Shown piece after piece: positions 3,260-63,300 of a stretch of DNA of 64,000 nt (the first letter of the stretch is position 1; every line of letters begins with the position of its first letter). A model generated the notes under the pieces. It did not search any database. It was not told the origin of the DNA and worked only from the letters and a program-made list of their open reading frames with translations. Origin of the DNA: Cytophagales bacterium (GTDB lineage: Bacteria; Bacteroidota; Bacteroidia; Cytophagales; Bernardetiaceae); contig JAAFJX010000023.1 in the NCBI GenBank assembly GCA_013299045.1, forward strand, positions 1 through 64,000, given 5' to 3'. Position numbers and translations under genes: made by a program.

Positions 3260-3278
3260 AAATTAACTCATAAAAAAA

Positions 3279-5930: not shown

Positions 5931-5949
5931 ATATTAGCTCATAAAAAAA

Positions 5950-25307: not shown

Positions 25308-25397
25308 AACGTGCGTCTTGAATATTCGGCAAATTTATAATAATATACAAGAATAGTATTTTTATAGCGGATTATTTTTCAAAAAAACAAAACCACA
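25308..25397 (-). promoter_or_regulatory. Duplicated upstream region of the restriction-modification gene
   Basis: The ~65 bases before the ATG are the same as those before the upstream copy (27873-27945). On the minus strand a -7-like TAAATTTG lies at 25337-25330; no good -33 box is visible. The stretch TTTTTCAAAAAAACAAAACC also occurs at the end of each unit and probably marks the duplication joint. Confidence 0.55.
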
Positions 25398-31000: not shown

Positions 31001-31386
31001 GCTTGGTCAAACTTAACGAAGCCAGCTTTGCCGTACATGGGCATCAGAGAACCGTCTGCCTTCTTTTTCAGAAAGAAAACACCCCGCTCACCAGCATTAA
31101 GCATCAACCCTTCATGTTTGAGCATAACGTTTTCTACACGTCCGCCAAGCGTAGTTACATGAATGGTAGGACTAATAGTAGGGCCTTTGTAAAGCGTTTC
31201 GAGCTGAATAGTACTCGTCGTGTAAATTAGTTTTTGGGCAGCGTCCCAGTTGCTCTGCTGGGCTACGATAGTGCCTTGAAGCACGTAGTCGGCGTTCAAA
31301 CTTCGGTCAGCGAGGCTTTGTGCCTGCACCTGCCAGCAGCAAAGAAGCAGAAGAGCAGGGAGTAGAATTTTACGAAAGAGAGTCAT
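28015..31386 (-). CDS. Secreted multi-domain protein: IPT/TIG, degenerate matrixin, PKD-like repeats, T9SS sorting domain
   Basis: 1123 residues. A signal peptide (…CCWQVQAQ) is followed by an N-terminal beta region and an IPT/TIG domain (~185-275, ITSISPTSITAG). Next, ~290-480, comes a region that follows the course of Bacteroidota matrixin-type metalloproteases (DIIFNKDINWHAGD, VDMESKAL…, DPADVMYF, DKRTISDIN). The zinc site is lost: where HExxHxxGxxH is expected, the sequence reads FAFARTAQLAP (~430-440). Several PKD/Ig-like domains follow (for example ~530-590, and WDFGDGSTS near 985), then a type A T9SS domain starting ITVYPNPTNG. It is most likely a surface or released adhesin-like protein without protease activity. 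Confidence 0.85.
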   Translation of the reverse strand: MTLFRKILLPALLLLCCWQVQAQSLADRSLNADYVLQGTIVAQQSNWDAAQKLIYTTSTIQLETLYKGPTISPTIHVTTLGGRVENVMLKHEGLMLNAGERGVFFLKKKADGSLMPMYGKAGFVKFDQAQRIAYDGQQKYKNLPQDLFAPIELALGSTGVMIESKPLFNEPKTSATGRLDALNITSISPTSITAGTRSVLTINGSGFGPERGLNGNVWFSNADDGGTTMRQLFFPFGWWADVELLEWTDTRIKVYVPTFAGSGPLMVMNDAGESFTSTMNINVPYALNTNEFNFSATTILPADNADLVNITGSGGYVLSMNPSLYDNAPRRTAIVNALTYLRCKKGHNYSISRAPEELEGWGYDGTNNIVMADFGGSDMEVNVGTFYDFCNAGSNWYWRVREFDIIFNKDINWHAGDLPVPSTKVDMESKALFAFARTAQLAPVNDPADVMYFKLGKGKDKRTISDINSNAMDFILSRSTIEKDCGPLPMVLVTAADCNKTLNLPKAQFSSDLTELCGKGNIKFTNLSRNAASVEWAFDGGSPATSTAPTVVVNYNTPGTYSVKLTAKNAAGEDILTRTGYITVGSPTAVTVNLGPDKRYCEGDVIPSLDAGGPDGAKYLWSTGATTRSIAVTTSGEYSVEVNVGGCKARDAVMITIEPKPKADAGKDRETCAGIPVELFGSGGSDFSWLPTTGLSDPKIANPLASPTKTTTYYLTVSNGGGCPVSRDSVVVRVKPSPVINIPDTITLCTGSTVTLDATNPGATYKWSTGSSTPKINVNNTGLISVTVTMDECVARKNILVLVKDELPVSAGANVTICEGENVGLHASGATFYSWQAAEGMPEEQRNRHNPLVSPSKTTTYTVEGSGGAGCPAKTATVTVTVVPKPTLNLNDRDTLFVCDQSSATLDAGSTLADSRNFLWSTGANTRSIKISKSGLYTLRVITKFCQEALFDTVFVQFGKSAKASFEANVAPDNAASFVFMNSSKNAIKYSWDFGDGSTSTDETPTHTFKTSGTYKVVLIAQSDFCGADTLEKLVSATVTGINDPVFSKDITVYPNPTNGTLNVLWQEAQGEAVVQDLLGRDLHKAKLVSGENTMTLGNISKGVYILRITDGKRIAVKRIVVN

Positions 31387-45850: not shown

Positions 45851-46594
45851 CTAGAGGCCAATCAAGAACGCAGCAGAAAGGCTTACGTTTTGAGTATGCA
45901 AGGTGCGGTTCTCCAAGGCGTTGTTGGCGTAGTTGAAGTTTTTGTTCGCCATGTTGTTGAAACCTCTGCGGTAGCGCGCATCAATTTTGAGCGTACCGAG
46001 TTTCATATCAAAGTCCAAACCAGCGCCAATGATGCCGCCAAAGTCAAAGCCTCTGTATTGGTTTGTTTCATCTACACGATAGATAACAGGCATACCAGAA
46101 ATGTTAGAAGTACCTTCAACACGTGTAGTAGCGTTTACATTCACGGTAAAAGAAGGGCCTGCGTAGAAGCGTGGCTTATAAACAGAGATAAGAGGGAGCT
46201 TGAAGTCTAAAAGAAGGTTAGACTCAATGTTGTTGAGCGTAACGTCTTTCACACCTTGGCTGCCGCCTTCGAAGTTAGAAGCATAATTCATACGGCCAGC
46301 GCCATATTGTGCGAAGCCTACCTCTACGTCCACGCCCATCCACTGGTTGAGGCGGTAGCCGAGTGCACCTGCTACTGAAAGACCTGCGCGGCCGTCAGTG
46401 TGTGCGCCATCAGCACCAGACATAATGAAAGTACTGTAATTGATACCCGTACGGATACCTACTTCAAGACCTTTGTCTTTATTGCCGCTGCCATCGCCAG
46501 AGTCGGAGTCTGGACCGTCTTGTGCTTGAACAGATCCGAGCGCGAGGAAACCGCAAATACAAAGGAGAACTGCAAATAATCTGCTTGTTTTCAT
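45851..46594 (-). CDS. Outer-membrane beta-barrel protein (PorT/OmpA-barrel-like)
   Basis: 247 residues from the ATG at 46594; an in-frame ATG 36 bases upstream would add a polar tail before the signal peptide and is less likely. A signal peptide ends LGSVQAQ. A short Asp/Gly/Ser-rich linker leads to alternating beta strands (GLEVGIRTGINYSTF, GVDVEVGFAQYG, RFYAGPSFTVNVN) and an aromatic/leucine C-terminus (LSAAFLIGL), all features of Bacteroidota porin-family barrels. Its function is unknown. The promoter is at 46717-46746. Confidence 0.8.
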   Translation of the reverse strand: MKTSRLFAVLLCICGFLALGSVQAQDGPDSDSGDGSGNKDKGLEVGIRTGINYSTFIMSGADGAHTDGRAGLSVAGALGYRLNQWMGVDVEVGFAQYGAGRMNYASNFEGGSQGVKDVTLNNIESNLLLDFKLPLISVYKPRFYAGPSFTVNVNATTRVEGTSNISGMPVIYRVDETNQYRGFDFGGIIGAGLDFDMKLGTLKIDARYRRGFNNMANKNFNYANNALENRTLHTQNVSLSAAFLIGL

Positions 46595-46716
46595 GGCAGA
46601 GGGGTTAAGTTTGGGCAATGCTTTAAACATATAAATTTAACGGTGTTTGTCCTTTTGTAAACTTGCTTTGGGCTTGTTTTAAAGGATTGGATTGAAAAGT
46701 TGTAATCACTTGAGCG

Positions 46717-46746
46717 CAAAAATACGCATATTTTGATATTTCCAAA
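46717..46746 (-). promoter_or_regulatory. Predicted promoter of the outer-membrane barrel gene
   Basis: On the minus strand TTTG (46746-46743), an 18-base spacer and TATTTTTG (46724-46717). This implies a leader of about 110 bases. Confidence 0.65.
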
Positions 46747-46784: not shown

Positions 46785-46815
46785 TTTGTCCATATTTTTT
46801 TTTCTACTACCTTTG
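46785..46815 (+). promoter_or_regulatory. Strong predicted promoter of the large lipoprotein gene
   Basis: TTTG (46785-46788), a 19-base spacer and TACCTTTG (46808-46815), an exact consensus match. It excludes the longest upstream frame as the coding start. Confidence 0.8.
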
Positions 46816-46869: not shown

Positions 46870-49800
46870 ATGAACAACAAACCGTTGAAGTTTTCAATTC
46901 AACTCTCCGCAGCGCTCGTAACGCTTGGTATGTTCGCTTCTTGCGAGAAGGCTGAATTTACAGAGGCTGATGCGCTTGCGCTCGAAAACACACGTCTTCG
47001 TGTGATGGACTCCATTGAGGCAGTCAAAGACAAGCGTGCACTTGACAACTTGAAAGACTTGGCAAATTTCCAACGTACTCAAGATTCACTCGTGAAGATG
47101 AACGCTGGTGGCAAAGTAGTGTACAGCGTAATCGTTGTACCTGGTGGTGGCTCTGCTTTCTCTGGCGGCCGTGCAGACCAAGTACAAGGTTTGAAAGGCG
47201 CTAAGGTTACTGTTATGCAGTACGGCAAGTCTATCACTGCTACTACTGATGACGCGGGCTATGCTAGCTTCGCAGAACTCAGAAGCGGTGAGGCTACTGT
47301 ACACGTAGGTTCACCTACTGGCGACGACCTCGAAGGCTACACTGACATGAGCTACGTGGTAAACCTTACTCCTGACGGCGGCGTTGAAAACGACGGCGTA
47401 CAGATGGTAGGTAACGTAGTACCTGTATTCGAAAACGGCGCTACTTCTGACCAAGTAGATAAAATGGCGATGATTTCTGGTATCGCTTTCGCTGAACTCG
47501 ACCTCACCAACAACGTTGAAGAATTAGCGCCAGAAGGCACTTCTTTCACGGCTTCTATTGACGTGAACTCAGATGCTTTCTTGAACCGCTATATCCGCGA
47601 GCCTAACAGCATCGACGAAAGCGAACAAAGTTCAGGCGGCGCTACAACCAAGTCTGGCTACATCCAACGCGTGGCATACCAAGACGCATCTACTACTGCT
47701 CGCGCTGACGGCGACGGCAAATATACCATGATGGTGTCTGCTACTGCTTCTGGTCTTCCAATGAAAATCAACTACTCGGACTTCGCTGCTGACCGTAGCT
47801 ACTTCCAGTTTGACTTCAACGACGGCGAAAACTACGTAGATGACGGCGATGCAGGTCCTGTTACTAAGCGCTTCCTCTACGGCCCTAACGTAGCTTGGAA
47901 CACTGGCGGTGTGGACGGCAAAGGCGACTTCATCAAAGGCGCTTTCCGTACATTCGGCTTTGACAACTGGAGCTTCGTAGAAGAAGAGGCAGTTATTGAA
48001 GCTAACTTGTCTAGCAGCGGTAACGTTTTGACTGCACCTGTTTCAGAAGGTACTATCGGTACTGAGCAGTGCTTGGTATTACACCCTGCCGTGTTTGCTC
48101 TGAACCCAGTTGGTGTAAACATACCACAACGTAACATGGCTGCTTGCGACCCTATTACGACTGTAACTGGCTTCACGGCTGGTCAGCGTGCGGGTGAGTA
48201 CGTAGCAGACCACTCACGTGCTACTGGCTTGACTGCTGCCGACTTGGCTGCTAACGCCGTAACACCTCCTACTGTTACTTTCTCAGCTTCGCCAACTGGT
48301 GTGGCTGCTGACAACGCCGCTGGTTTTGCAGTATTGACCAACTCTGGTACTTCTGTAAACACTGACCTCGGCATTGGCCCAGTAACGAGCTACGGTGCAT
48401 CTCCTACCTTTACCCCAGCTCCTTCTGCTGCCCCTGCAGCAGCTCCAATTTTGGCTGGTACTGCTCTCCGCCGTATCCACAAAATTGTTGTTACAAACGC
48501 TGGTAAAGGCTATACAGCTGCTCCTATGGTTACCATCACACGTCCTGCAGTAGGTTTGAGCGGCCGCGGCACTATCCAAGCGCCTTCTAACCGCCTTACT
48601 GCTGTTCGCGTTATTGACGGTGGCTTTGCTTTCTTGCCACAAGGCAATAACCCTGCTGCTGTTGGTCCTAACGACTACAGCTTCTTGGGCGCTCAGTGGG
48701 TAGCTGCTTACAACACTCTTTTCCCTACAGCATCTGGCAACCAACGTGCTGGTATTGCTGAGCCTACTGGTGGTGCCTTCGGCTTTGACGCTGCTGGTCG
48801 CGGTACACGCATTGACCCATTCTTGAACGTGCCTGCTGGCCCTACGGGTTCTGTGGACGTGGACTTTGAGTACGACTGGGAAAACACAGCTACTGGCGAA
48901 GCCGCTGCTGCTATCGGCGTAGTACAGTCTATCCGTATCATCACTGGTGGTGACGCTTGGACAACCGCTACCCTCGCACTCTTGAATACTAACCCATTCA
49001 AATACTTCTCTACTGAAGCGGCTATTCCTTCTGCGGATACGTCTAACGATAACCTCTTCTTCGTATCTTCTGGCGGTCTCTTCTTCAACACCAACACTGC
49101 TGCTGCTGGTGGTTACGGTGGTGTGGTAGCTGGTACGCCTGCTTTGGCTGCTGTACCGGGCGCTAGCTCTACTTTGATGGTGATAACAACTGGCGCTACT
49201 GGCCTCGCTACTGGCGTAGGTGGTACTCCTGCTTTCTCTATCGGTAACGGCTACGTTTTTGCACCACTCGTACGCGTAAGCGCAGGTAATGCTTCTTTGA
49301 GCACACGTTGTAACGCAAACGGTCAACTGACTGAACTCCGCATTGAAGACTCTGGTAACAACTATGCGTCTATCGCGCCTGCTTCTGTTCGTGTTGAAAT
49401 CGTTCCGCCTACAAACACTCTCTCGGCTGTATTCTACACTGGCGGTGCAAGCATCGACAACTACAGCATTGATAAGGCTACTGACCCTGCAAAACAAGGC
49501 GAAGCGAAGTTTGTAGCGCGTAAACACGCAACTCCTATTGTAGCCAGCGTTCGTGCAGACCAGAACACTTACTGGGTGGACTTTGATGATCCTACTGCTG
49601 GTGGCACTGGCGCTGTTGGTGTACCTGTATTTGCTGACCAAGTGCCGGTTAGCCCTGGTCCTCCAAGCACATTGAGTACTGCTGCATCTTCTACGCGCCG
49701 TATGGTTGGTATGGAAATCGTTGATGCTGGTATCGGTTATGAGCCTTCTCAAACTATCCGCTTCACTATCCAAACACAAGCAAACAACGTAGGTGCTTCG

Positions 49801-50769
49801 GTAGCTGCTGATGCTTCTGTGATGGCTAATCTCGGCTTCGCAACTGTAAGCTTCACAATCGTAAGCGGTGGCTTAGGCTATGCTTGTCGTCCTGAAGTAT
49901 TCTTGACTGGTGGCGGTATCCTTTTGGACGACCCTAACCACCCAGAAGTAGATGACTTCACGTTTGACTTCAACACAGCTGGTACTATCGTGGGTATGAC
50001 TTTCGTACCTACTAACCCAGTACCTTATACAACTGCTGGCGTTGCGGCTGACCCGCTCGTGATGACTGTTAGCGTTGCGCGTTTGGAAGATGCTTTTAGT
50101 AGAGTGAACCTCTTTGATGGCCAAACCCAGATTATACAAGCAAACGGCAATGGTGATGAAATTACTGGTGCTACAGGTCTATCTTTGATTGGTACAAGTG
50201 CAGCTTGGGTAAACCCTGACTTTGCTGGTTACATCAACTATGGTACACCAGGTGCTACAGCAGTGGCACTTACTGATGACGGTAGCATTACTTGGGGACG
50301 CTTTTTCCGCTTGAGCGCTGGCTTTGCCAATGGTCAATATGGTGCCCTCATTGATGGCGAGCAAACGGGTGACCCTATCGGTCAATACATTTTGTCTCCA
50401 CGCCTCACAGTAGGTGGCGGCACAGGCGCTGAGTTTGTAGGTGTATTGAACAACTCTGGTTTGTTCTACAACCAATCTCAGCCAGGTGGTATCATGGATA
50501 TGGCTCTCGTAAACGGTGGTTCAGGCTACGGCTTCATCTTCACGAACGACCCATCTATGTCTCCAGAGCCATTCCGCGTATTGGGTGGTCCTGACGGAAC
50601 TTCACGCACTCGTTTCTTAACAGGTACAGCTAACTTGGATACTGATACAGACGACGACGGCGTGAATGACATCAACCGCTTCCCAGATGCAGTTGAAGCA
50701 TTTGAAACAGTTTCTGGTTTGCAGTATGTTCGCGATATCCACTACGGTACTGGCCAAGAGCTTGAGTAA
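46870..50769 (+). CDS. Very large surface lipoprotein with G-x-G-Y repeats
   Basis: 1299 residues from the ATG at 46870. Lipoprotein signal with lipobox FASC (Cys ~25), a charged coiled-coil-like stretch (~28-75), and a carboxypeptidase-regulatory-like beta domain (~80-190: LKGAKVTVMQYGKS, TDDAGYASFAEL). From ~500 on, a recurring beta motif of the form IxVxxxGxGYxxxPxVxI appears: TNAGKGYTAAPMVTI, VDAGIGYEPSQTIRF, VSGGLGYACRPEVFL, VNGGSGYGFIFT. The C-terminus has an Asp-rich calcium-type loop (DTDTDDDGVNDINR). The DNA is richer in GC and uses a narrow set of codons (GGC, GCT, ACT, CTC), suggesting very high expression. No function is known; a structural or surface-layer role is my inference. 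Confidence 0.75.
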   Translation: MNNKPLKFSIQLSAALVTLGMFASCEKAEFTEADALALENTRLRVMDSIEAVKDKRALDNLKDLANFQRTQDSLVKMNAGGKVVYSVIVVPGGGSAFSGGRADQVQGLKGAKVTVMQYGKSITATTDDAGYASFAELRSGEATVHVGSPTGDDLEGYTDMSYVVNLTPDGGVENDGVQMVGNVVPVFENGATSDQVDKMAMISGIAFAELDLTNNVEELAPEGTSFTASIDVNSDAFLNRYIREPNSIDESEQSSGGATTKSGYIQRVAYQDASTTARADGDGKYTMMVSATASGLPMKINYSDFAADRSYFQFDFNDGENYVDDGDAGPVTKRFLYGPNVAWNTGGVDGKGDFIKGAFRTFGFDNWSFVEEEAVIEANLSSSGNVLTAPVSEGTIGTEQCLVLHPAVFALNPVGVNIPQRNMAACDPITTVTGFTAGQRAGEYVADHSRATGLTAADLAANAVTPPTVTFSASPTGVAADNAAGFAVLTNSGTSVNTDLGIGPVTSYGASPTFTPAPSAAPAAAPILAGTALRRIHKIVVTNAGKGYTAAPMVTITRPAVGLSGRGTIQAPSNRLTAVRVIDGGFAFLPQGNNPAAVGPNDYSFLGAQWVAAYNTLFPTASGNQRAGIAEPTGGAFGFDAAGRGTRIDPFLNVPAGPTGSVDVDFEYDWENTATGEAAAAIGVVQSIRIITGGDAWTTATLALLNTNPFKYFSTEAAIPSADTSNDNLFFVSSGGLFFNTNTAAAGGYGGVVAGTPALAAVPGASSTLMVITTGATGLATGVGGTPAFSIGNGYVFAPLVRVSAGNASLSTRCNANGQLTELRIEDSGNNYASIAPASVRVEIVPPTNTLSAVFYTGGASIDNYSIDKATDPAKQGEAKFVARKHATPIVASVRADQNTYWVDFDDPTAGGTGAVGVPVFADQVPVSPGPPSTLSTAASSTRRMVGMEIVDAGIGYEPSQTIRFTIQTQANNVGASVAADASVMANLGFATVSFTIVSGGLGYACRPEVFLTGGGILLDDPNHPEVDDFTFDFNTAGTIVGMTFVPTNPVPYTTAGVAADPLVMTVSVARLEDAFSRVNLFDGQTQIIQANGNGDEITGATGLSLIGTSAAWVNPDFAGYINYGTPGATAVALTDDGSITWGRFFRLSAGFANGQYGALIDGEQTGDPIGQYILSPRLTVGGGTGAEFVGVLNNSGLFYNQSQPGGIMDMALVNGGSGYGFIFTNDPSMSPEPFRVLGGPDGTSRTRFLTGTANLDTDTDDDGVNDINRFPDAVEAFETVSGLQYVRDIHYGTGQELE

Positions 50770-50830
50770 CCCTCAACCCCTTGTTCAGTCGGTCGTGTTG
50801 TGTCCGCACACACGATAAGAGTGAATATAA

Positions 50831-50864
50831 AAAAACGGAGGCGAAAGTCTCCGTTTTTTTTTTT
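50831..50864 (+). terminator. Terminator of the large lipoprotein gene
   Basis: AAAAACGGAG and CTCCGTTTTT pair around GCGAAAGT and run on in a long T tract (about 12 T in all). Confidence 0.9.
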
Positions 50865-51067: not shown

Positions 51068-53194
51068 ATGTCCGAACCAGAATTTTCATGGCGACCCTTT
51101 CCCATGGCGCGCTTGCTTGTTACGCTTGTGAGTGGGATTGCCCTTGCCTTGGTTTTTGGCACAGAATTATCCGCAGAGCAGGTTCAAATCGCGCAGTGGA
51201 TATGTGTGGGCATGGTTTTAATTTTTGTATTGCTGCACTTTTACTTCCAATCTACCGTGTTACGTCCCTACCATGCTTTGTTAGGTGTTTGGGGACTTTT
51301 TTGCCTAATGCTGATAGGTTTTTCGCATACGTGCAATCATAACCAGCGTCTTGATAAACAACACTTTACAAATCAAAAAGATAGCATTCTGTATTCCCGC
51401 ATTCGTTTGGTTACAGAGGCTACCATCAAGCCCAAACATACCAGTTTTTTGGCAGAGATAACAGCCTATAAAAGCCCAAAAGGCTGGCAGTCTGCCAAGG
51501 GGCGCATCAAAGTCTATCTACGACAAGACAGCTCCGCAGGCTGTTTAGAATATGGCGACGCGTTACTCCTCAAAGGAACACCCTCTGAGCTAGAGCCGCC
51601 CAAAAACCCATTTCAGTTTGATTATAAAGCATTTTTAGGCCGTCAAAACGTCTATCATCAGCTATTTGTGGAGGAGGGGGCTTGGTTACTTTTGGAAAAG
51701 CGCCAAAATTTCAGCCTCATGGCCTGCGCACTCAAAGCGCGCCACTATGCCGACAGCGTACTGAAAGCCCACCTAGACCCCCGCACCGAAGAGTACGGCG
51801 TAGCAGCAGCCCTCCTGCTTGGTTTGCGCACCGAATTAGACGAGGACTTACTTGGTGCATATTCTGTAAGTGGCACTATGCACATTCTAGCGGTTTCGGG
51901 TATGCACGTCATGTTGCTTTTTTTGGTGCTAGACTGGCTGCTGACGCGCTTCAAGGTTAAAAAGAGAGGCAATTGGTCATACATGGTTTTCGCGCTACTC
52001 TTGCTTTGGTCTTATGCTATGCTCACTGGCCTTTCGGCATCGGTGCTTAGGGCGGCTGCCATGCTCAGCGTAGTGGTAGTGGCTGATACCTTCGGCAAAC
52101 GCAAAAATGTTTATAATTCGCTCTCTGTTTCGGCCTTTGGCTTGTTGCTATATTGCCCTTATCTCCTACTTGATGTCGGTTTTCAGTTGTCTTATCTGGC
52201 CGTCTTAGGCATTGTTTTTATTCATAGACAGCTGTACAGCCTCTACGATTTCGAGGGCTACCTCAGCGACTTGCTCTGGCAGGTTTTTTGTGTAAGCTTG
52301 GCCGCACAGATTATGACCATGCCCATTTCGTTGTACTATTTTGACCAGTTTCCTACCTATTTTTTACTTGCCAATATGCTCATTGTGCCTTGGAATGCCT
52401 TTATGATGTATAGCGGGCTTTTATTGCTACTTTTTCATTGGGTGCCCTATCTTTCGTGGCTACTGGCTATGGCCACAAAATGGCAGATATGGCTCATGAA
52501 CCGCATTGTGCTGTGGATTGACTCTCTTTATTTGAGCAGTTTTGAACACATTCACCTAGACCTCTGGGAAGTACTCACTTTTTATTTGCTGCTCTTTTGC
52601 CTATTCCATTTCTTTGTTTACGCACGGTTTAAATATCTGATTTTAAGTGTTTTAATTGCTATACTTTGGCTAGGGGGTAGCTTTCTGCATTACCAAAAAA
52701 CCAGCAAACAAAAAATTATCATGGTTTTGCATACTCAGCAGCAAGCAAATTTACTATTGCTGAACGGACAAGAGGCGCGTTTATGGGTAAGCCCAAGCCT
52801 TCTCTTGGATTACAAAACCTTCAAAAACAACATATTACCTCTGTGCAATGCCAAAGGTATTATCAAAATCCGTACACAAGCCTTTGATAAGCCCTTCCCC
52901 AAAATAAGTAGCCAAAAAACAGAGTATGGCCACAGGATTTATTGGGAAGGGCTTTGCATAGACCACCTCGAAAAACCGCTCAAGAAGCCACTGATGGGTC
53001 AGACAGACATTGTTTTAGTCAGTCAAAATGCCTTGTTTAAGCTCGATAGACTCGCCGAAGTTGCGTTCCAAACCATTGTTCTGGACGCTTCCAACAAGCC
53101 TAGCCTAGCCAAACGTTTAGAAAAAGAGGCCCTGAAACATGGCTTAGAACTACACAACGTAGGCAGTAAAGGTGCTTGGATACTTGAGCGCTAA
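51068..53194 (+). CDS. comEC: ComEC/Rec2-family DNA-uptake channel protein
   Basis: 708 residues. N-terminal membrane helices and a DUF4131-like OB segment (~95-200: ITAYKSPKGWQSAKGRIKVYL) precede the competence domain (~235-520), with GLRTELDEDLLGAYSVSGTMHILAVSGMH as its landmark (positions ~250-278) and ~8 membrane helices. The final ~170 residues are a soluble beta-rich domain, not the full metallo-beta-lactamase domain with HxHxDH seen in Bacillus ComEC. ComEC forms the inner-membrane channel for single-stranded DNA in natural transformation. Its last 4 bases overlap the convergent ATPase gene. Confidence 0.88.
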   Translation: MSEPEFSWRPFPMARLLVTLVSGIALALVFGTELSAEQVQIAQWICVGMVLIFVLLHFYFQSTVLRPYHALLGVWGLFCLMLIGFSHTCNHNQRLDKQHFTNQKDSILYSRIRLVTEATIKPKHTSFLAEITAYKSPKGWQSAKGRIKVYLRQDSSAGCLEYGDALLLKGTPSELEPPKNPFQFDYKAFLGRQNVYHQLFVEEGAWLLLEKRQNFSLMACALKARHYADSVLKAHLDPRTEEYGVAAALLLGLRTELDEDLLGAYSVSGTMHILAVSGMHVMLLFLVLDWLLTRFKVKKRGNWSYMVFALLLLWSYAMLTGLSASVLRAAAMLSVVVVADTFGKRKNVYNSLSVSAFGLLLYCPYLLLDVGFQLSYLAVLGIVFIHRQLYSLYDFEGYLSDLLWQVFCVSLAAQIMTMPISLYYFDQFPTYFLLANMLIVPWNAFMMYSGLLLLLFHWVPYLSWLLAMATKWQIWLMNRIVLWIDSLYLSSFEHIHLDLWEVLTFYLLLFCLFHFFVYARFKYLILSVLIAILWLGGSFLHYQKTSKQKIIMVLHTQQQANLLLLNGQEARLWVSPSLLLDYKTFKNNILPLCNAKGIIKIRTQAFDKPFPKISSQKTEYGHRIYWEGLCIDHLEKPLKKPLMGQTDIVLVSQNALFKLDRLAEVAFQTIVLDASNKPSLAKRLEKEALKHGLELHNVGSKGAWILER

Positions 53195-56100
53195 ACCCTA
53201 ATCTTAGCGCTTTGCAACGTGTTTAATAGGTCAAAAAGTTTTTCTTTATCCTCTGAATCAAGAGCGCTAAGGTCTAGCTCTAAGTGCAGCCTGGGTCTTG
53301 CTTGCAAAAACTTTGCGAAGTCTACCTGCTGTACATTTTTACCGTCAAAGACCACTAACTCGGCCTCGCCTCTTTGCAACAGACCCAATTCCTGCTCTGT
53401 GAACTCTAAAAACTTATCGGTATTGGCCTTAAAAACCAACTGCGCCGTTTGGTTATCCTTGTTCAAGCCTTTTATAAGCGAACCCTGGCTCTCTAAAAGC
53501 TGCTCGCTGAAAGCATAATCTTGAGCAATCAGAAACTCTTTGAGAACCGCTTTAGCGCGTTTTATTTGGTTAAAAGCCGCCGCAAAAGCATTGTCTGCGT
53601 TAGTCTGATGACTGTCTTTAGCTTGTTCTCTACGGTTATTTTTTAGCCTCAAAAGCGCCAACAAATGCTGCTGTGTGAGTAAATGCGAGCTAGACAGGCC
53701 AAAAAGTTCCTCTTCTAAATTTGCCGACTTCGCATTCAAGTAAATTATTTTATTGTCTATCAAAGAGTTACCTTTCTTAAATCGTTTGATTTCAGTATCC
53801 ATAAAAATCAGCGTATGAGGAATTTCGCCATCAACAAGGCGAATCTCAAAACCGAATTGCTCTTTCCATGTCAAATAAAAATCGGTAGTCCACTCTATAC
53901 TGTTCACTGCCAAATAGTTGAGGTCTGCATATTCTTCAATTTTTGAGGCACGCGGCTGTATGTTGCGCAAATCCAGATTCGTCATGTATAAACCCGCCTT
54001 CTGCGTAGCCAGCAAAACCTCCTCCATACTGACCGCACATCTATCCAATAACTGATTCTGGCGCGCTTCATTAAAATAATAGACCTTATCTAGTTCAACA
54101 TCAATCAGTTGATAGAAAAATTCAGAATCCTCTATCTCGGAGATAATCGGTATGGGAGTGTGTGGTGCAAAGCTGCTCAACGCGGTATAGAGCCTTTTAA
54201 GCCAAGAAAGGCGCTCATCTAAATTAGAAAATATCATTTTATTTTGCTTACACCATTGTAAAGTTCGCGTTATAAATACCTGATGGTCAGCATTTAAATC
54301 ATTGATTTGTTTGATACGAATAGGCTCGCCACCATTTTTGAGATAGTTGCGCAAATGCCATAAATCAGATTGTTGCGTATGCAAACCCAAAGCAGCCAGC
54401 ATAGAAAGTTTATAGTCTGTATCTGAAGCATTTAGCCACTTGATGCAGAAGTCTGAAAGACGCTCTTCTTTCAAAGCAAACTCATGCGGATAGAGGCAAT
54501 CATGTAAGACACAGCCCAGCAAATTTTCTAGAAACACAGTACCCTCTTCGTCTAATTGCACAGACCCTAGCCCAGTCTCAAAAGTACTGGTCAGTTGGTT
54601 AAGTATGTGTAAACGCCCTTTTTCTTCCGTCAGAATGGAAGATAAAATGCACTCATAACCACGCAAATAGCCACGAGAAACGGATAGTTCATCAACAATT
54701 TTTAAGCCAGCGAGTTGCCAATAAGGCTTGTGTTGATTGAGTTTGAATATTCTTTCAAAATCTTGATAATCAGAATGAAGTACACAGTTAGAGGGCATAA
54801 AAGCATGGCCTCGCAGTAACCAAACACCGTTGTCGCTGAGCTTTTGCGCCTGATGCTGCACGTCATATACACACCAGCCCTCTAACGCCTTGCTAGTCAC
54901 CTGGTTATCTTGCGCATAAGACAATACAAAAGCCAAGGCTTGTGCGTTCGGTAAAATGGTTTGACTTTCCTTGAGCAAGTTCCATAAATCTTTGCCTTGT
55001 ATAGGTTCGGGGTGCTGAAAGACCTTTTTACGCAGTAGCGCCTGCTCGCTTTCAGGAAAATTCGTTACTAGCTTGTCTGCCAGCTCTTTAAATTGGTTAA
55101 AAGATGGCCATATTTCGCGCAAATCCAGTACAATTTTACCGTAAAAATCCGAGTAAATGACCATTTCATGATGGAAGGCATAATCAGACAATCGGAATAG
55201 CTCGCCGTTGTCGTTTTCTAAAACAAACTTGCTCTTTAAAGTAAGCACATCTATTTCTTTGCTTCTAAAAGCCTGTAGAGCTTGAACAACAAAACTGTTG
55301 GCATCGTAAACTTCTGTAGAGCGAACCAATACATCAGTCATTTTTTGGTAAAAATGCTGCTGAACACTTTTATCAGATGATTGTAAAGCTGCTTCTGCTG
55401 CCTCATTTGTGTCTAAAAACTTCATTAAATATTCAAAAACCTCTTGTTCTTGAAGACTTCCCTTTTTAGAAATTATATGCTTTGATAAAAATTCAGGCAT
55501 TAAAGCAAATTTTTCGGGAGCTTTCTCTAAAACAAGTTCATAGAGTCTTGATTTAGATTTACCAACATAAGCAGGTATTTTATCTTTTCTTAGATTTATT
55601 TTAAGTACTTTATTTTTATCTGTTGTTTCTACTATTAAAAATAAAAAAGGTTCAATATTTATTAAAGCAAACCAATCAAATAAAATTAACAAATTTTGTT
55701 CTGAAATAATAACTTCATTTTTAAATAAAGTTTGAATTTGAGAATCATTTAATTTAAAGAAATTTTCTTTAATCAAATTTAGAGTAATTGAATGAGGTAA
55801 ATATAAAGAAAATGAATCATCAAAAGATTTTTTTAAGCCTTCATAGTTTTCAAAAATTAATACCTTTTGATGATAAAATAAATCTTTAAAAGAAACAAAG
55901 CCTACCTTTTCAGAGATAAAAAAGATATTTTTTTCATTAAGTTGTATCTTTTTTGTACTAATTTTATAAAAATCTTTTAAAAAAGAATAAAAGTAAGTAA
56001 CTTTTTCTAAAATAGACGATAATTCAATTGTTTTTTCTTCTGGACTTTCTAAATTTGTATTATCAAGATACTTTTTATAAATAACAAAGCCATGATTTAA

Positions 56101-59013
56101 AATTTTAGAGGTTATTTTATCTAAATGTGGTACAATAATATTTTCAAGAGTTTCTTCTTTTTTAGCAAAGTGGCTGATAAGTTTTATATCAAACTCCTCT
56201 TTATGAATACAAAAATCTACGAGCAGCTTGTCGGAATCTTCGGGATTTAGCAGGGTTTTCAGGCTTAAATTTTCGCCTAAGTTATTCTTAAAAAGAGGAA
56301 TACGCTCTAACCGTGTTGCGTCTAAAATCGGCTTCAAGGCTTCAAAAACCGCTATTTTCTGATTGGCTTCAAGGGTATTCTGGGCAGCATTTTGTAGTAA
56401 GTCCTGATACATTTTGTTGAAGGCCGTACCCGACTGCACGGTTTGTAACTTGTAGGGTTCTTCGTTGAGGAGTGGCAGTAGTTCAAAGGCGGGTACATGA
56501 AGCCCAGTTAGCTCAAAAATTCCTTTCTCGAGCAAGTCATAATTTGACACTTCGCCCATCTTGTTATGCCAGAACACTTGCTGTGGCGACACGAAGCCAA
56601 CGGCATCATTTACATACACAAAAGGTTGATTCTGAAGCGTAGGCAGCCCTTTTTTGAGTTTTTGTAGGGCTTTTAACTCCACCAAAAACTGCACCACGCG
56701 CTGGGCTTTTGTTGGGGCATCAGTTTCTGGCTCTTCGCTTTGTGCGGGTGCTCGGAGTGCGTCTTGCATAAGGCTAGAAAACTGATTAACAACAATTTGC
56801 GTATAAAGTTCGCTCGCGTCATTAAGAATCAAGTAAGGCTCAAGTTCTTCGCTATAATCTGTTTCATGGATTCGGAAAGGCTCAAAATAAGGATTTATGA
56901 GCATTTTAGGCGATAGTAATCCTGAAAGTGGCTGGCATTCTCCTTTTTTATTTCTGAAAAGACGCACCTCACGGATTTGCATCAAGCTAACCCCTTTTAA
57001 TTCTTTTAAAAAGTTTATTAACAGGACTTTATGTGCATTCAAAATAGGGTTTGCGCGGGTACTGTCTGCACTAATAGTTTCTATTTGTGTGGCTATTTTC
57101 TTAAAAAGCGCCAGAGGCTTGTCCAAATAAGCGAGTTGCTCTTGTTTGAAAGCCGCAAAATCTTTGAGGCCATCAAGTTTAAACTCAAGTACCTTGAAGT
57201 CAATGCCTTGAAGTGCATTTTTGATTTTTTTGGTGTCTTCCGAAATCAAAAAAACGTTGGGTTCATTCAGCAAATTGGCCAAAGTCAAGAATTCTGTTTT
57301 ACCTTGATTGTCAATAATTTGGAAGCACTTTATCTCCACTAATTTGCTCATAAAAGCGGCATCTATGGTAGCGGTTTTGAGTTCGGCCAAAAAAACGTCA
57401 TACTCTTGGCTATCAAAAGTGCTAATCCATTCGTTGAGCAACTCAGTTTTTGCATTGATAATCAACTCTTTAAGTCCCCATTTTTTGAGTCCTAATTTAT
57501 TATCTTGGGCTGCCTCACGTTGTTCGGGCTTGTTTTCTATCAGATTATCCCAAAAAAACCATTCTTTGCCAATGCCTAATTGCATGGGTTCTATGGCTAA
57601 CTGCGTTTTTTTGATGATAACAAGGTCTTTGTTGAGCGTGTTGCCCTTGTTTGTAGGTATGCCAGTACGCGCAAATTCAAGCAAGGGTTTATAGAGAAGC
57701 GCCCCAACGAGTTGATGGTTGTGTTTATCTGGTGCGTCTGAGAGTAAAATAGCTTTGTAAATGCTGGCAAAACGTTTAAAATCTTTGCGTTTGTAGGCAG
57801 CTAAATTGCTTTTGATGGCTTCAGCCAAATAACTGAAAGTGTGGGTATTAGCATCACCTTGTTCGTCCAGACGTGTGCGGTCTGTAATCTTCATAAAGCT
57901 CGTTCCATGCACAAAAAAAGCCAAGTTGTGGCGCTCATTGCGCATAGGGAAGAACTGATAAATGGAAGGAGCAGTTTTGAGTGCTAATGCAGCCTCGGTG
58001 CTCGGCGGTAAGCCCAACCAGAGGTCAATAGGGCATTCGGGAAACTCAGGCTCAATGCGTTTGAAGGCTTCGCTTCGTGGTTCTATGGTAAATTTTTCTA
58101 ATATAACTTCTTCACGTTCAATCTGCTCGTCTTGTAAAACAACTGTTTTGAGCGTTTTGAGTGTATTGAGTGCATAAGCAATACCGGAACGCAAATTGAT
58201 GAGAGATTCTTTGAGTTTTTCGTGCTTTCTAGCGCCAAATTTGATAAAAAAGAGGCTGCCTTGTTTCAAATTCAAATTATTGAGCAGATGGTTGTGCTTT
58301 TGTAAGAAGGCAGAAAGGCTCAAAAGTTCATTGGCATCAAACAATACTTGATTTTTTCTTTCTAAGTTTAGTACCTCCTCGGTAGGTGCGGTAGGAAAGC
58401 AAGTCAGGATAATTTTGAGCAGCCAAGGGGCATCATGCAATGGTGCGGCATAATGGGAGGTGTTAATCTTTTCGTTTTCAGAGAATTGGCACAAGCTCTG
58501 AAACTGCTCGCCGCTGCCCCAAGAAAAAAGCAAAGGGCCTGCATAATCATTGAGGAGCTCGTCTGCTCCGTCATTTTTGCCCAAAAGACGGTAAGCGAGC
58601 TTAAAGCCTATACCATAACGCCCAATTTTGCCGCAATTTTCAGCCTTTGATTTATCCGCTTTAGTGCCTTGAAAAGAGTTCAGAATCGCCTTGAGGTCTT
58701 GTTCTGTGAATGGTTTTCCATTATTGAGGACGAGAAAATAGTTTTCATCATAGATAACAGCACAATGAGTGGCTTCGGCATCGGCAGCATTTTGCAAAAA
58801 CTCGTATATAGCCTGTTCGTCTTGGGCATTTTGGAGCTTGGGCGTAAGGTCTGCTTTGATGTTATTGACTATGCCATTAATCATTTTGTAAAAACCAGAT
58901 TGATTGTCTTTTTCGCTGCCCACAAAATGCTCGTCCCAGCCACTCATGTTGTAGTTTTGCTCGTTTTTCCAAGCGGAGCGAAATTGCCTAATATCCTTGA
59001 TGCGCATAGCCAA
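53191..59013 (-). CDS. Giant sacsin/HSP90-like GHKL ATPase protein
   Basis: 1940 residues, one of the largest single genes here. The N-terminal ~250 residues are a GHKL (HSP90/sacsin) nucleotide-binding domain: the N-box EFLQNAADAEAT (71-82, with Glu71, Asn75 and Asp78), a G1-type VLNNGKPF (95-102) and a lid/G2 motif KIGRYGIGFKLAY (129-141). The remaining ~1690 residues are mostly helical, Leu/Lys/Glu-rich, with sacsin-like repeated WLGLPP/…FFPM segments near 345-370 and no recognised effector domain. Large sacsin-type ATPases occur in bacterial accessory and defence regions, but the gene stands alone and no function is proven. Residues ~940-1190 are encoded by much more AT-rich DNA than the rest. 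Confidence 0.8.
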   Translation of the reverse strand: MAMRIKDIRQFRSAWKNEQNYNMSGWDEHFVGSEKDNQSGFYKMINGIVNNIKADLTPKLQNAQDEQAIYEFLQNAADAEATHCAVIYDENYFLVLNNGKPFTEQDLKAILNSFQGTKADKSKAENCGKIGRYGIGFKLAYRLLGKNDGADELLNDYAGPLLFSWGSGEQFQSLCQFSENEKINTSHYAAPLHDAPWLLKIILTCFPTAPTEEVLNLERKNQVLFDANELLSLSAFLQKHNHLLNNLNLKQGSLFFIKFGARKHEKLKESLINLRSGIAYALNTLKTLKTVVLQDEQIEREEVILEKFTIEPRSEAFKRIEPEFPECPIDLWLGLPPSTEAALALKTAPSIYQFFPMRNERHNLAFFVHGTSFMKITDRTRLDEQGDANTHTFSYLAEAIKSNLAAYKRKDFKRFASIYKAILLSDAPDKHNHQLVGALLYKPLLEFARTGIPTNKGNTLNKDLVIIKKTQLAIEPMQLGIGKEWFFWDNLIENKPEQREAAQDNKLGLKKWGLKELIINAKTELLNEWISTFDSQEYDVFLAELKTATIDAAFMSKLVEIKCFQIIDNQGKTEFLTLANLLNEPNVFLISEDTKKIKNALQGIDFKVLEFKLDGLKDFAAFKQEQLAYLDKPLALFKKIATQIETISADSTRANPILNAHKVLLINFLKELKGVSLMQIREVRLFRNKKGECQPLSGLLSPKMLINPYFEPFRIHETDYSEELEPYLILNDASELYTQIVVNQFSSLMQDALRAPAQSEEPETDAPTKAQRVVQFLVELKALQKLKKGLPTLQNQPFVYVNDAVGFVSPQQVFWHNKMGEVSNYDLLEKGIFELTGLHVPAFELLPLLNEEPYKLQTVQSGTAFNKMYQDLLQNAAQNTLEANQKIAVFEALKPILDATRLERIPLFKNNLGENLSLKTLLNPEDSDKLLVDFCIHKEEFDIKLISHFAKKEETLENIIVPHLDKITSKILNHGFVIYKKYLDNTNLESPEEKTIELSSILEKVTYFYSFLKDFYKISTKKIQLNEKNIFFISEKVGFVSFKDLFYHQKVLIFENYEGLKKSFDDSFSLYLPHSITLNLIKENFFKLNDSQIQTLFKNEVIISEQNLLILFDWFALINIEPFLFLIVETTDKNKVLKINLRKDKIPAYVGKSKSRLYELVLEKAPEKFALMPEFLSKHIISKKGSLQEQEVFEYLMKFLDTNEAAEAALQSSDKSVQQHFYQKMTDVLVRSTEVYDANSFVVQALQAFRSKEIDVLTLKSKFVLENDNGELFRLSDYAFHHEMVIYSDFYGKIVLDLREIWPSFNQFKELADKLVTNFPESEQALLRKKVFQHPEPIQGKDLWNLLKESQTILPNAQALAFVLSYAQDNQVTSKALEGWCVYDVQHQAQKLSDNGVWLLRGHAFMPSNCVLHSDYQDFERIFKLNQHKPYWQLAGLKIVDELSVSRGYLRGYECILSSILTEEKGRLHILNQLTSTFETGLGSVQLDEEGTVFLENLLGCVLHDCLYPHEFALKEERLSDFCIKWLNASDTDYKLSMLAALGLHTQQSDLWHLRNYLKNGGEPIRIKQINDLNADHQVFITRTLQWCKQNKMIFSNLDERLSWLKRLYTALSSFAPHTPIPIISEIEDSEFFYQLIDVELDKVYYFNEARQNQLLDRCAVSMEEVLLATQKAGLYMTNLDLRNIQPRASKIEEYADLNYLAVNSIEWTTDFYLTWKEQFGFEIRLVDGEIPHTLIFMDTEIKRFKKGNSLIDNKIIYLNAKSANLEEELFGLSSSHLLTQQHLLALLRLKNNRREQAKDSHQTNADNAFAAAFNQIKRAKAVLKEFLIAQDYAFSEQLLESQGSLIKGLNKDNQTAQLVFKANTDKFLEFTEQELGLLQRGEAELVVFDGKNVQQVDFAKFLQARPRLHLELDLSALDSEDKEKLFDLLNTLQSAKIRV

Positions 59014-60264: not shown

Positions 60265-63200
60265 TTATTCGCCTACCAGCACAAAAGCCCCCCAATAATA
60301 GGGTTCGGGAAAACGCTTTTTGAGATTCTTTTGGGCTGTTTTGAAGGCTTGCCGTTTGTTTTGGCCTTTCAAGAGCGCCGTATAAAACTCGGTCATTAAG
60401 GTTTGAGTGGCCTCGTCGTCTATCTTCCAGAGGCTCATCAGCACGGACTTTGCGCCCGCTTGCTGAAAGGCGCGTTGCAAACCAAAAACTCCCTCGCCCG
60501 TCTGTATGTCGCCTAGGCCTGTTTCGCAAGCAGACATGACGACTAGCTCTGTGTTGTCCAAAGTTAAATTCATGACTTCTTCTGCCGTCAAAATACCGTC
60601 CTCTCCGTCCTGATTCGGTTTTTGGCAACCAGCCAACAACAAACCAGAGCGCATGAAAGCATTTTTTAGAAGGTTTCTGTTCATTGCGGTTTGAACATTT
60701 TGTACTTCAGAACCCTCGATTTCAGGAATAAAAAAACCGTGTGTGGCTACGTGCAGTATGGTGGGGCTTTTTAGGTTTTTAAGAGCTTCTTCGGTGGCAT
60801 TTTCAGCCAAAAGTAAGTTTACTTTTAGCTTTTTTTGATTGAACAAACCAAAAACATTTTCTACTTCTTTTTTAGTGCCTGGCAATAAAGAAACTGAACC
60901 AGCCACACCAACAGCAGACTGCATACTGGAAAAACCTGCTGCTCGGTCGCGTTTTTTTTCTAGGTCTTCATTTTCAGCACCATAAATGGGGTAACCGAGC
61001 AGATAAGCCTGATAATCCTCGTAGTTCTGGCTCAAATCGCGGCTTTTTTTGCGGAGTTCAATCAAGTCGCGGCTGCTGCCAATGAGCTGAATATTGGCTT
61101 CTTCCAAAAGAAATTGGTTTGTTTTAGTATTTTTTAAGGTGTTCAGGCTGAGTTGATGGAAAACACCGTCAGGCGAAAAATAGATTTTTTTGAAACCTTT
61201 TAGGTTCATAGAGAGCAACTTATCGGCTATTGGTTTCCAGAAAGCGTTATAAGAAACCGTATCATCAATTTTGAACTCAATGCAATTTTTGTAATATTTC
61301 AAAAATTTATCTTCAAGTTCTTGTGCATTTTTGAAGATATGAAAAGCAGGATAATCCTCTGTTTGAGCTGTTAGAAACAAGGCCATGTAGGCTGAATCTG
61401 CTTTTATGATTTCTATAACCACCTCGTTTTTAGCCAGTTTATTCTTCACTTCTTGCCATTTATAGGCTTTGGTTTGCGTATTCTGGCTAAAAAGAGCAGA
61501 CTTTTTAGAAAGCTCTCTTTCCAAATCATTGATTTTATTTTTCATGCTTTCCAAATCTAAATTCTGTTCTTTTTGTGCGTCTAGCGGTAATTGATAGAGC
61601 TTGGTATAGATTTCACGTTGCTTCTTCCAGTTATCGTACCGATTGACTAAAACGGTATCGCCGCTATTCAGAATGGCATTTTTCATCTTTTGGGTAGAAG
61701 AAAAAATGATGCCTTTTGTAAAAAGGGTTTGGTCATAGACTGTAGCCATGATTTCAGGCTTTTCGGTTACATAGAACTGTGAAAAAGATATGGTATTATC
61801 AAAAAAATAATGGACAGACTGCCAATAGGCTTGTTTTTCTTGTTCTGAAAAAGAAGGAAAAAGGTTCTCTATCTGCTCACATTTATTTTGGATAGATTCC
61901 ATATAAAGTGGCTCTGCCTTCGCGTAGAGTCCTTTCCTTATATAAAGATGCGCCAAATCATTACACGATTCTGCATAGAGCGGGTGCTTTTTGCCAAAAA
62001 TACCCGCCCTTGTGTTTTTGGATTCTATGTAGTGCTCCTCGGACTTATCATAAAAACCCTGTTTCAAGTATATAGTTGCCAAACTATTGAGAAAGTTGGT
62101 ATAATCTGGGTGTTTTTTACCTAAGACCTTCTCTATGATACTCCCAGCCTCCATATAAAATTCTTCTGCTTTATCGTACATGGCTTTCCCAGAATATAAA
62201 TTTGCCAAGTTACTACAAGCAGCGGCATAGGTTGGATGTTGTTTGCCCAAAAGCTCTAAAAAAACGCCTTTAGCTTCCATGTAAAGCAACTCCGCTCTAT
62301 CATGTTGTTCATTTTTTTTATATAGATTGGCTAGATTATTACATGAACTTGCATAATAGACGCTCTTTTTGCCGAAAGTCTCTTGGAAAATGCTTTTAGC
62401 CTCCCAATAAAGCGGCTCTGCTCTGTCATAAAGCCCTTCGTGAAAGTATAAGGCTGCCAGGTTATTGCATGAATTGGCGTAACTATGGTGTTTTTTTCCT
62501 AATACATCTGCCTTGTTACTTTTAACTTCTATAAAAAGCTCCTCGCTTTTATCATAGTAGCCTTGCGCCAAATAAAGATTAGCCAAGTTGTTGCATACAT
62601 TTTCATACTCTGTATTTTTCTTGTTCAGAACATTTTTCAATAAGTCTCTTGCTTCTAAAAAAAGAGGCTCCGCCTCCTTGTATAATCCTTGTAAATAGTA
62701 CAAAGCGGCAATAGAATAACACGAACGGGCATAGTCGGGGTTGGCTTTGCCCAATACTTCGCCATAAATACCTTTAGCCTCTAAGCAAAGCGATTCTGCC
62801 TTTTCGTAAAGCGCTTGGTCTATGTAAAAAAGGGCGAGACTGTTACATGAGTAAGCGTATTCGGTGTGCTTTTTGCCAAATATACTTTCTCTGATTGCTT
62901 TTGCTTCCAAATAAAGTGGCTCTGCTTTAATATAACTGGCATTTTTTCTGTACAAATCCGCCATTCTGTTGCAGCAGCGTGCATAAAGAAAATGATTTTT
63001 ACCAAAAGCAAGTTGTATAATTTGTTTGGCTTCAGACCAAAGCTGCTCTGCTTCAGGATAAGAGCCTTTATAAAACAACACTGTACCGAGATTAAGGGCT
63101 ACCTTCGCATAGCTGGTATCTTTGTTCTGTTGCAACTCCACCTTTTTAAGGGCTAGCCGCAAAATAGAATCTGCATCTTTATATTTCTGTTGCGTTATCA

Positions 63201-63300
63201 AAGTTTGTCCAAGACTATCCAAACTCTGCCAACTCTGCGCATAAGCAATACTGCTTGCCTGAATAAGAGATAGCATCAAAGAAAATAAGAAAATGCGCAT
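60265..63300 (-). CDS. Secreted TPR-CHAT protein, distant inverted paralogue
   Basis: 1011 residues, 44 more than the array members, which is about one extra 42-residue TPR unit. Signal peptide (…SIAYAQ), about ten TPR units, linker, then CHAT domain with His ~854 (HVATHGFF) and Cys ~925 (SACETGLG); both are intact. It lies 51 kb from the array in the opposite orientation, yet the protease end is nearly the same protein as in the array, for example AENATEEALKNLKSPTILHV. The upstream 250 bases show no clear promoter. Confidence 0.9.
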   Translation of the reverse strand: MRIFLFSLMLSLIQASSIAYAQSWQSLDSLGQTLITQQKYKDADSILRLALKKVELQQNKDTSYAKVALNLGTVLFYKGSYPEAEQLWSEAKQIIQLAFGKNHFLYARCCNRMADLYRKNASYIKAEPLYLEAKAIRESIFGKKHTEYAYSCNSLALFYIDQALYEKAESLCLEAKGIYGEVLGKANPDYARSCYSIAALYYLQGLYKEAEPLFLEARDLLKNVLNKKNTEYENVCNNLANLYLAQGYYDKSEELFIEVKSNKADVLGKKHHSYANSCNNLAALYFHEGLYDRAEPLYWEAKSIFQETFGKKSVYYASSCNNLANLYKKNEQHDRAELLYMEAKGVFLELLGKQHPTYAAACSNLANLYSGKAMYDKAEEFYMEAGSIIEKVLGKKHPDYTNFLNSLATIYLKQGFYDKSEEHYIESKNTRAGIFGKKHPLYAESCNDLAHLYIRKGLYAKAEPLYMESIQNKCEQIENLFPSFSEQEKQAYWQSVHYFFDNTISFSQFYVTEKPEIMATVYDQTLFTKGIIFSSTQKMKNAILNSGDTVLVNRYDNWKKQREIYTKLYQLPLDAQKEQNLDLESMKNKINDLERELSKKSALFSQNTQTKAYKWQEVKNKLAKNEVVIEIIKADSAYMALFLTAQTEDYPAFHIFKNAQELEDKFLKYYKNCIEFKIDDTVSYNAFWKPIADKLLSMNLKGFKKIYFSPDGVFHQLSLNTLKNTKTNQFLLEEANIQLIGSSRDLIELRKKSRDLSQNYEDYQAYLLGYPIYGAENEDLEKKRDRAAGFSSMQSAVGVAGSVSLLPGTKKEVENVFGLFNQKKLKVNLLLAENATEEALKNLKSPTILHVATHGFFIPEIEGSEVQNVQTAMNRNLLKNAFMRSGLLLAGCQKPNQDGEDGILTAEEVMNLTLDNTELVVMSACETGLGDIQTGEGVFGLQRAFQQAGAKSVLMSLWKIDDEATQTLMTEFYTALLKGQNKRQAFKTAQKNLKKRFPEPYYWGAFVLVGE

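Follow-up and report, generated by a model that had tools for sequence, protein, structure and literature searches.

A giant lipoprotein of Cytophagales with cyanophage-type repeats, marked codon bias and an adjacent outer-membrane barrel gene

Abundant surface lipoproteins are a known kind of protein in the Bacteroidota. Some bear a lipoprotein export signal (LES), which PMC5080379 gives as C-X-K-(D/E)2-X in Capnocytophaga and as SDDDD and SDDFE in other genera. Here we describe a giant lipoprotein encoded in a stretch of 64,000 nucleotides (the window; positions 1 to 64,000 of contig JAAFJX010000023.1, assembly GCA_013299045.1) from a Cytophagales bacterium of the family Bernardetiaceae, a family described as thread-forming and gliding in PMC5167729. 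The original prediction, made from the sequence alone, was that the gene is unusually active and that its product could be a main surface or sheath component. On balance, we lean towards a major surface-exposed outer-membrane lipoprotein with a coat or fibre role and a dedicated barrel partner. The gene and its signals are:

46870..50769, + strand: giant lipoprotein gene (1299 amino acids; intact reading frame, single genome copy, orthologs)
46870..46944, + strand: lipoprotein signal peptide with lipobox FAS and Cys25, from the sequence; the mature start CEKAEF resembles the Bacteroidetes LES
46785..46815, + strand: Bacteroidota-type promoter of the lipoprotein gene, TTTG(46785-46788)-N19-TAccTTTG(46808-46815), from the sequence and kept in orthologs
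50829..50860, + strand: intrinsic terminator hairpin, then a T run (14 pairs; -18.5 kcal/mol, fold z -4.55)

The predicted interval is exactly one gene: the ATG lies at 46870, the stop codon ends at 50769, and there are no internal stops. The mature protein has a computed mass of ~132 kDa and a computed pI of 4.3. "Giant lipoprotein" is an apt description, as the 1299 residues include the FAS-C25 lipobox of a signal peptidase II substrate, and the cysteine is invariant in a 15-row alignment.

The promoter and the strong terminator were also borne out. The promoter fits the Bacteroidota consensus. This pattern by itself is not rare (9 observed in the window versus 4.86 expected), and it is the comparison across orthologs that makes the promoter convincing: a strict match lies 73-110 bp 5' of the ATG in all 16 orthologs from f1 and f3, the nearest families (the count includes the window), and upstream of 0 of 4 distant homologs.

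To score codon use, we computed the codon adaptation index (CAI) against L2, S19, L22 and EF-Tu of the same genome for 61 genes (31 window genes plus 30 genes of two further stretches; the four references are among the 61, each self-excluded). The lipoprotein gene had the highest CAI (0.785) and the lowest effective number of codons (38.7) of the 61, which confirms the narrow codon choice and puts the gene above EF-Tu and the ribosomal references, a comparison that had been suggested as a check; the reference set is small, and S19 scores only 0.577 when self-excluded. The runners-up in CAI were the divergent barrel gene described below (0.766) and EF-Tu (0.750). Synonymous choice is extreme for some residues (His CAC 1.00, Asn AAC 0.89). 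As a second measure, we ranked genes within each locus by the share of C-ending codons for Asn, Phe, His and Tyr. Within its own family, the lipoprotein gene came first in 8 of 9 loci and second in the remaining one; in f3 it was first in 3 of 7 loci. The barrel gene was second in the window, G003 and G004. The signal is strong within the window's family and fades with distance. Together, promoter, terminator and codon bias agree with the predicted unusual activity, and we infer from them that the lipoprotein gene is probably highly expressed.

The original prediction listed three repeats and could not name a family for them. The protein contains 5 GxGY motifs, compared to a mean of 0.54 in shuffled sequences (the maximum over 500 shuffles was also 5). 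Distant homologs in families f18 and f19 have regular tandem repeats, such as VTNAGTGYTAPPTVNF, and we built a hidden Markov model (HMM) of the repeat from these distant homologs only. It matched the window's lipoprotein at E 2.3e-10, while the best of 400 shuffled sequences reached 0.0069. Judged by sequence, the GxGY units are degenerate versions of a repeat of about 40 residues, VTNGGSGYTSAPTVTF. The copies, with their HMM independent E-values (i-E), are:

48472..48546, + strand: GxGY repeat GKGYTAAPMVTI (GKGY), residues 535-559, the best copy (i-E 2.3e-10)
49243..49305, + strand: GxGY-type repeat, residues 792-812 (i-E 0.0028)
49690..49764, + strand: degenerate repeat GIGYEPSQTIRF (GIGY), residues 941-965 (i-E 1.9; in register across orthologs)
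49846..49905, + strand: repeat GLGYACRPEVFL (GLGY), residues 993-1012 (i-E 0.025, with the HMM match at 993-1005; in register across orthologs)
50506..50529, + strand: degenerate last repeat (GSGY), residues 1213-1220 (i-E 0.16)

Thus, of the three repeats originally listed, GKGY is strongly supported; GLGY is weak and GIGY non-significant when taken alone, and the register of both is kept in an 11-row alignment of orthologs. The repeats can now be placed, as the same kind occurs in virion proteins of T4-like cyanophages. The phage family phrog_460 (head closure Hc2) matches the window's lipoprotein at E 8e-7, and 309 of 50,697 phage records match the repeat region of an f19 relative; 307 of the 309 are named as Synechococcus phage, cyanophage or Prochlorococcus phage. 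The best 15 of the 309 matches include proteins annotated as neck protein, head closure Hc2, baseplate wedge initiator and structural protein. Given the HMM result against shuffled sequences and the phrog_460 match, homology to the phage-type GSGYT repeat is beyond chance. Because the repeats resemble those of cyanophage neck and baseplate proteins, a role as a scaffold, coat or fibre is likelier than an enzymatic one. The prediction was to be given up if the protein matched a known enzyme family; as no enzyme family matched above the cut-off in Pfam or NCBIfam, it stands on that point.

The earlier reading had missed three things: a conserved barrel partner, a family-wide tail and the restriction of the family to one order. 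The features concerned are:

45851..46630, - strand: divergent partner, an outer-membrane beta-barrel protein, PF13568 (Pfam E 2e-19; adjacent in 14 loci; codon bias rank 2 of 61)
46717..46746, - strand: promoter-like TTTG-N18-TAttTTTG of the barrel gene (pattern match)
50734..50754, + strand: conserved C-terminal tail DIHYGTG, residues 1289-1295 (pattern near the end of complete homologs)

Of 26 loci examined, 13 have a related barrel gene beside the lipoprotein gene, which makes 14 with the window, across four families: every one of the 9 loci in the window's family, plus 5 from f4, f18 and f19. The barrel gene is transcribed divergently in the window's family and in G107; in G234, G082, G209 and G086 it sits upstream in the same orientation. 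The window's genome has 8 PF13568 matches in total, so adjacency by chance would be rare. Furthermore, the best match of each of the 14 adjacent barrels is another adjacent barrel, and never one of the 6 own-genome paralog sequences that we compared. This is firmer evidence than the barrel tree, which places all adjacent barrels on one side with weak support (57/32).

The tail pattern, D-[IVA]-[HND]-YG-[TV]-G, starts 11-16 residues before the end in all 19 complete sequences (a twentieth, G031, is truncated at the end of its contig). These proteins range in length from 754 to 1817 amino acids and vary widely in repeat content, and the tail probably marks a conserved contact, either with the next subunit or with the barrel partner. 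We also considered a general sorting signal and rejected it: in 11 genomes of the family, the pattern was found in this gene in 9, and otherwise in one unrelated protein of G002.

Neither Pfam nor NCBIfam has a family above the cut-off for the window's lipoprotein, and NCBIfam has none for six relatives. The PDB sequences contain no relatives of the family profile or of the canonical repeats. Orthologs were recovered from 9 of the 11 genomes in the window's family, the window's own among them; both genomes that yielded none are 84% complete. Within the order, matches at 1e-5 occur in 28 of 390 genomes, the weakest with short N-module fragments alone; across the phylum, 8 of 395 genomes match, with just 50-60 amino acid fragments outside the window's own genome. 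Named matches are from Bernardetiaceae, Flexibacter sp. and Cytophagales metagenome-assembled genomes, and the family looks confined to Cytophagales. The window's GC of 41.4% is close to the 42.2% that PMC5167729 gives for Hugenholtzia roseola. This distribution led us to reject a place among the surface lipoproteins of the Bacteroidota beta-barrel assembly machinery (BamH, BamM), as a core subunit would be expected throughout the phylum; BamH is conserved across it, according to PMC12611786. We found no description of this lipoprotein family in the open-licence literature, which is weak evidence of absence. In the libraries searched, there is no curated model for the family, for its pairing with a barrel or for its phage-type repeats. 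Family f4 also includes a short form of 340 amino acids (L080 2642-3661, - strand) with the N-module and about two repeats but no tail, adjoined by a barrel gene; it would be a handy small target for structural work.

The N-terminal part of the protein includes:

46963..47106, + strand: predicted helix, residues 32-79, a possible stalk (AlphaFold2 model of the N-part, block pLDDT about 46-79)
47167..47325, + strand: putative carboxypeptidase-regulatory or CNA-B-like beta domain, residues about 100-152 (sub-threshold Pfam; Foldseek on a low-confidence model)

AlphaFold2 models residues 26-639 as this long helix plus a beta module, at low confidence (predicted local distance difference test score, pLDDT, of 44). 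The Pfam matches for the lipoprotein are all sub-threshold (carboxypeptidase-regulatory, SdrD_B, SpaA and Ig, around residues 103-151). As a hint only, given the low-confidence model, Foldseek finds weak nearness to TIE, SpaA, SdrD, UafA and DUF3823 domains. We found no Por_Secre_tail-like C-terminal sorting domain of type IX secretion cargo in the lipoprotein (Pfam, NCBIfam). There was also no FimA/Mfa Pfam match, as in type V fimbrial lipoproteins, and FimA came only at Foldseek rank 38 (E 0.06), on a poor model.

Codon adaptation, a lipid anchor, a start like an export signal, acidic repeats, the lack of an enzyme match and a dedicated barrel all argue for an abundant structural surface lipoprotein. 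This agrees with the predicted main surface component, with surface position and abundance being the parts that we infer; for a sheath in particular, we found no specific support. We propose that the protein would be lipidated at Cys25 and sent to the cell surface by its LES-like N-terminus, where the helix and CNA-B-like module could lift the long acidic beta-repeat region off the membrane. The small barrel encoded next door would probably anchor or assemble it.

Several findings weigh against this proposal. To match the Capnocytophaga LES, the CEKAEF start would need one more acidic residue. Structure prediction is poor not only for the N-part but also for the C-part (residues 430-1299, 7 sequences), where a pLDDT of 37 makes the model unusable for the repeat region. 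The barrel gene is adjacent in 0 of 7 f3 genomes with usable flanks, and its codon use is unremarkable, with no bias, in six g2 genomes. Finally, the lipoprotein gene is first in C-ending share in just 1 of 5 f4, f18 and f19 loci.

A credible but less likely alternative is an abundant surface adhesin or ligand-binding lipoprotein that is not a structural coat: it would bind polymers, particles or surfaces, with the repeats as spacers or binding domains and the barrel as an accessory pore. Domains like CNA-B and carboxypeptidase-regulatory are frequent in adhesins and pilins, and the Foldseek matches of the low-confidence model (SpaA, SdrD, UafA and TIE, with Bacteroides DUF3823 proteins also among them) fit such a role. 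Yet no carbohydrate-binding or adhesin domain reached the Pfam cut-off, no SusC/SusD pair was seen among the ten window proteins or the flanks tested, and the extreme codon bias suggests bulk amounts.

It is improbable that the protein faces the periplasm and works with the barrel in outer-membrane stability. Envelope-stability proteins can be paired with a small barrel gene in this way, and the missing acidic residue in the window's protein would fit. However, K or R stands at +3 in most relatives, with acidic residues after it, as in surface lipoproteins, and the wide variation in length and repeat content also speaks against it. The mature start is CERDEF in six genomes and CAKDKF in two; CNREEF, CNRTEF, CTKETF, CSKDQF and CSKTTF also occur, along with CAKDEF and CEKEEF, which match C-X-K-(D/E)2-X exactly. 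Distant members begin with CNDDDG, CKDEFS and CNKEYS.

That amino-acid composition or recent transfer, instead of high expression, explains the codon bias is very unlikely: the protein is rich in Ala, Gly and Thr and the codon reference is small, but the bias sits in synonymous choice, tracks EF-Tu and the ribosomal genes and is seen again in orthologs of AT-richer genomes, and the gene is shared across the family.

If the coat or fibre reading is right, this would be the chief surface protein of a gliding, thread-forming bacterial family, with no curated model and with a ready candidate for its anchor. It would tie a family of bacterial surface lipoproteins to a repeat of cyanophage virion proteins, so that one solved structure would explain both, and the conserved tail is a clear target for assembly tests. 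Much more speculatively, the Cytophagales may have a two-part coat, in which the barrel anchors the lipoprotein while phage-neck-type repeats and tail assemble in a donor-strand-like manner into fibres or an array over the gliding filament. Some members might even build "goblet" particles, which have reportedly been seen on Flexibacter polymorphus in old electron microscopy.

Other genes occur near the lipoprotein gene in some relatives. An FKBP-type neighbour is found in some f3 loci. Six g2 genomes and G111 encode a conserved lipoprotein-like protein of 160-195 amino acids downstream of the giant gene; neither of the two members tested (L026 11418-12002 and L070 8838-9383, both + strand) matches a Pfam family. 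In two f3 genomes, the giant gene adjoins a gene for a large protein (L072 10812-12809 and L074 4431-6428, both + strand); TPR, PD40 propeller and OmpA domains were identified in the L072 protein, with which the L074 copy groups.

Elsewhere in the window, 356-8853 (+ strand) encodes three similar-looking secreted-type proteins in tandem (967, 883 and 967 amino acids), with one more 50 kb away (60265-63300, - strand). The first of the three and the distant one are TPR and CHAT-domain proteins, and a protein with a similar N-terminus is encoded at L087 12578-15505. Two tandem genes at 22869-27872 (- strand; 812 and 824 amino acids) share an identical N-terminal 30 residues, have GC contents of 0.31-0.32 (window, 41.4%) and have no matches in Pfam or PADLOC; they have the look of imported DNA that was duplicated recently. 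At 28015-31386 (- strand), a gene with GC above the window mean encodes a 1123-residue protein that combines PKD and Ig domains with a type IX secretion tail; in G005 and G006, homologs lie at a distance of 2-3 kb from the lipoprotein gene. The N-terminal 861 residues of the 1940-residue sacsin/HSP90-type ATPase protein at 53191-59013 (- strand) match PADLOC TmtA at E 3e-293, and the protein is a candidate for anti-phage defence.

In comparison with known systems, the lipoprotein resembles the LES-bearing surface lipoproteins of Bacteroidota in its lipobox and in the charged start right after the cysteine; it differs in having no SusD, SusE or enzyme domain, in its giant repeat region and in being single-copy. 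Its N-module has a weak likeness, in Pfam and Foldseek, to CNA-B, SpaA, SdrD-B and carboxypeptidase-regulatory-like domains and to DUF3823 lipoproteins, but with every Pfam match below the cut-off and a low-confidence model. The partner gene belongs with the PF13568 (OMP_b-brl_2) barrels, at E 2e-19, but the adjacent barrels are more alike across four families than they are to the own-genome paralogs compared. With the cyanophage virion proteins (phrog_460 Hc2, baseplate wedge initiator and structural proteins), it shares a homologous GSGYTSAPTV-type repeat. In contrast to those proteins, its repeats are degenerate and widely spaced, and they belong to what appears to be a lipidated surface protein of bacteria that has an N-module and a tail of its own.

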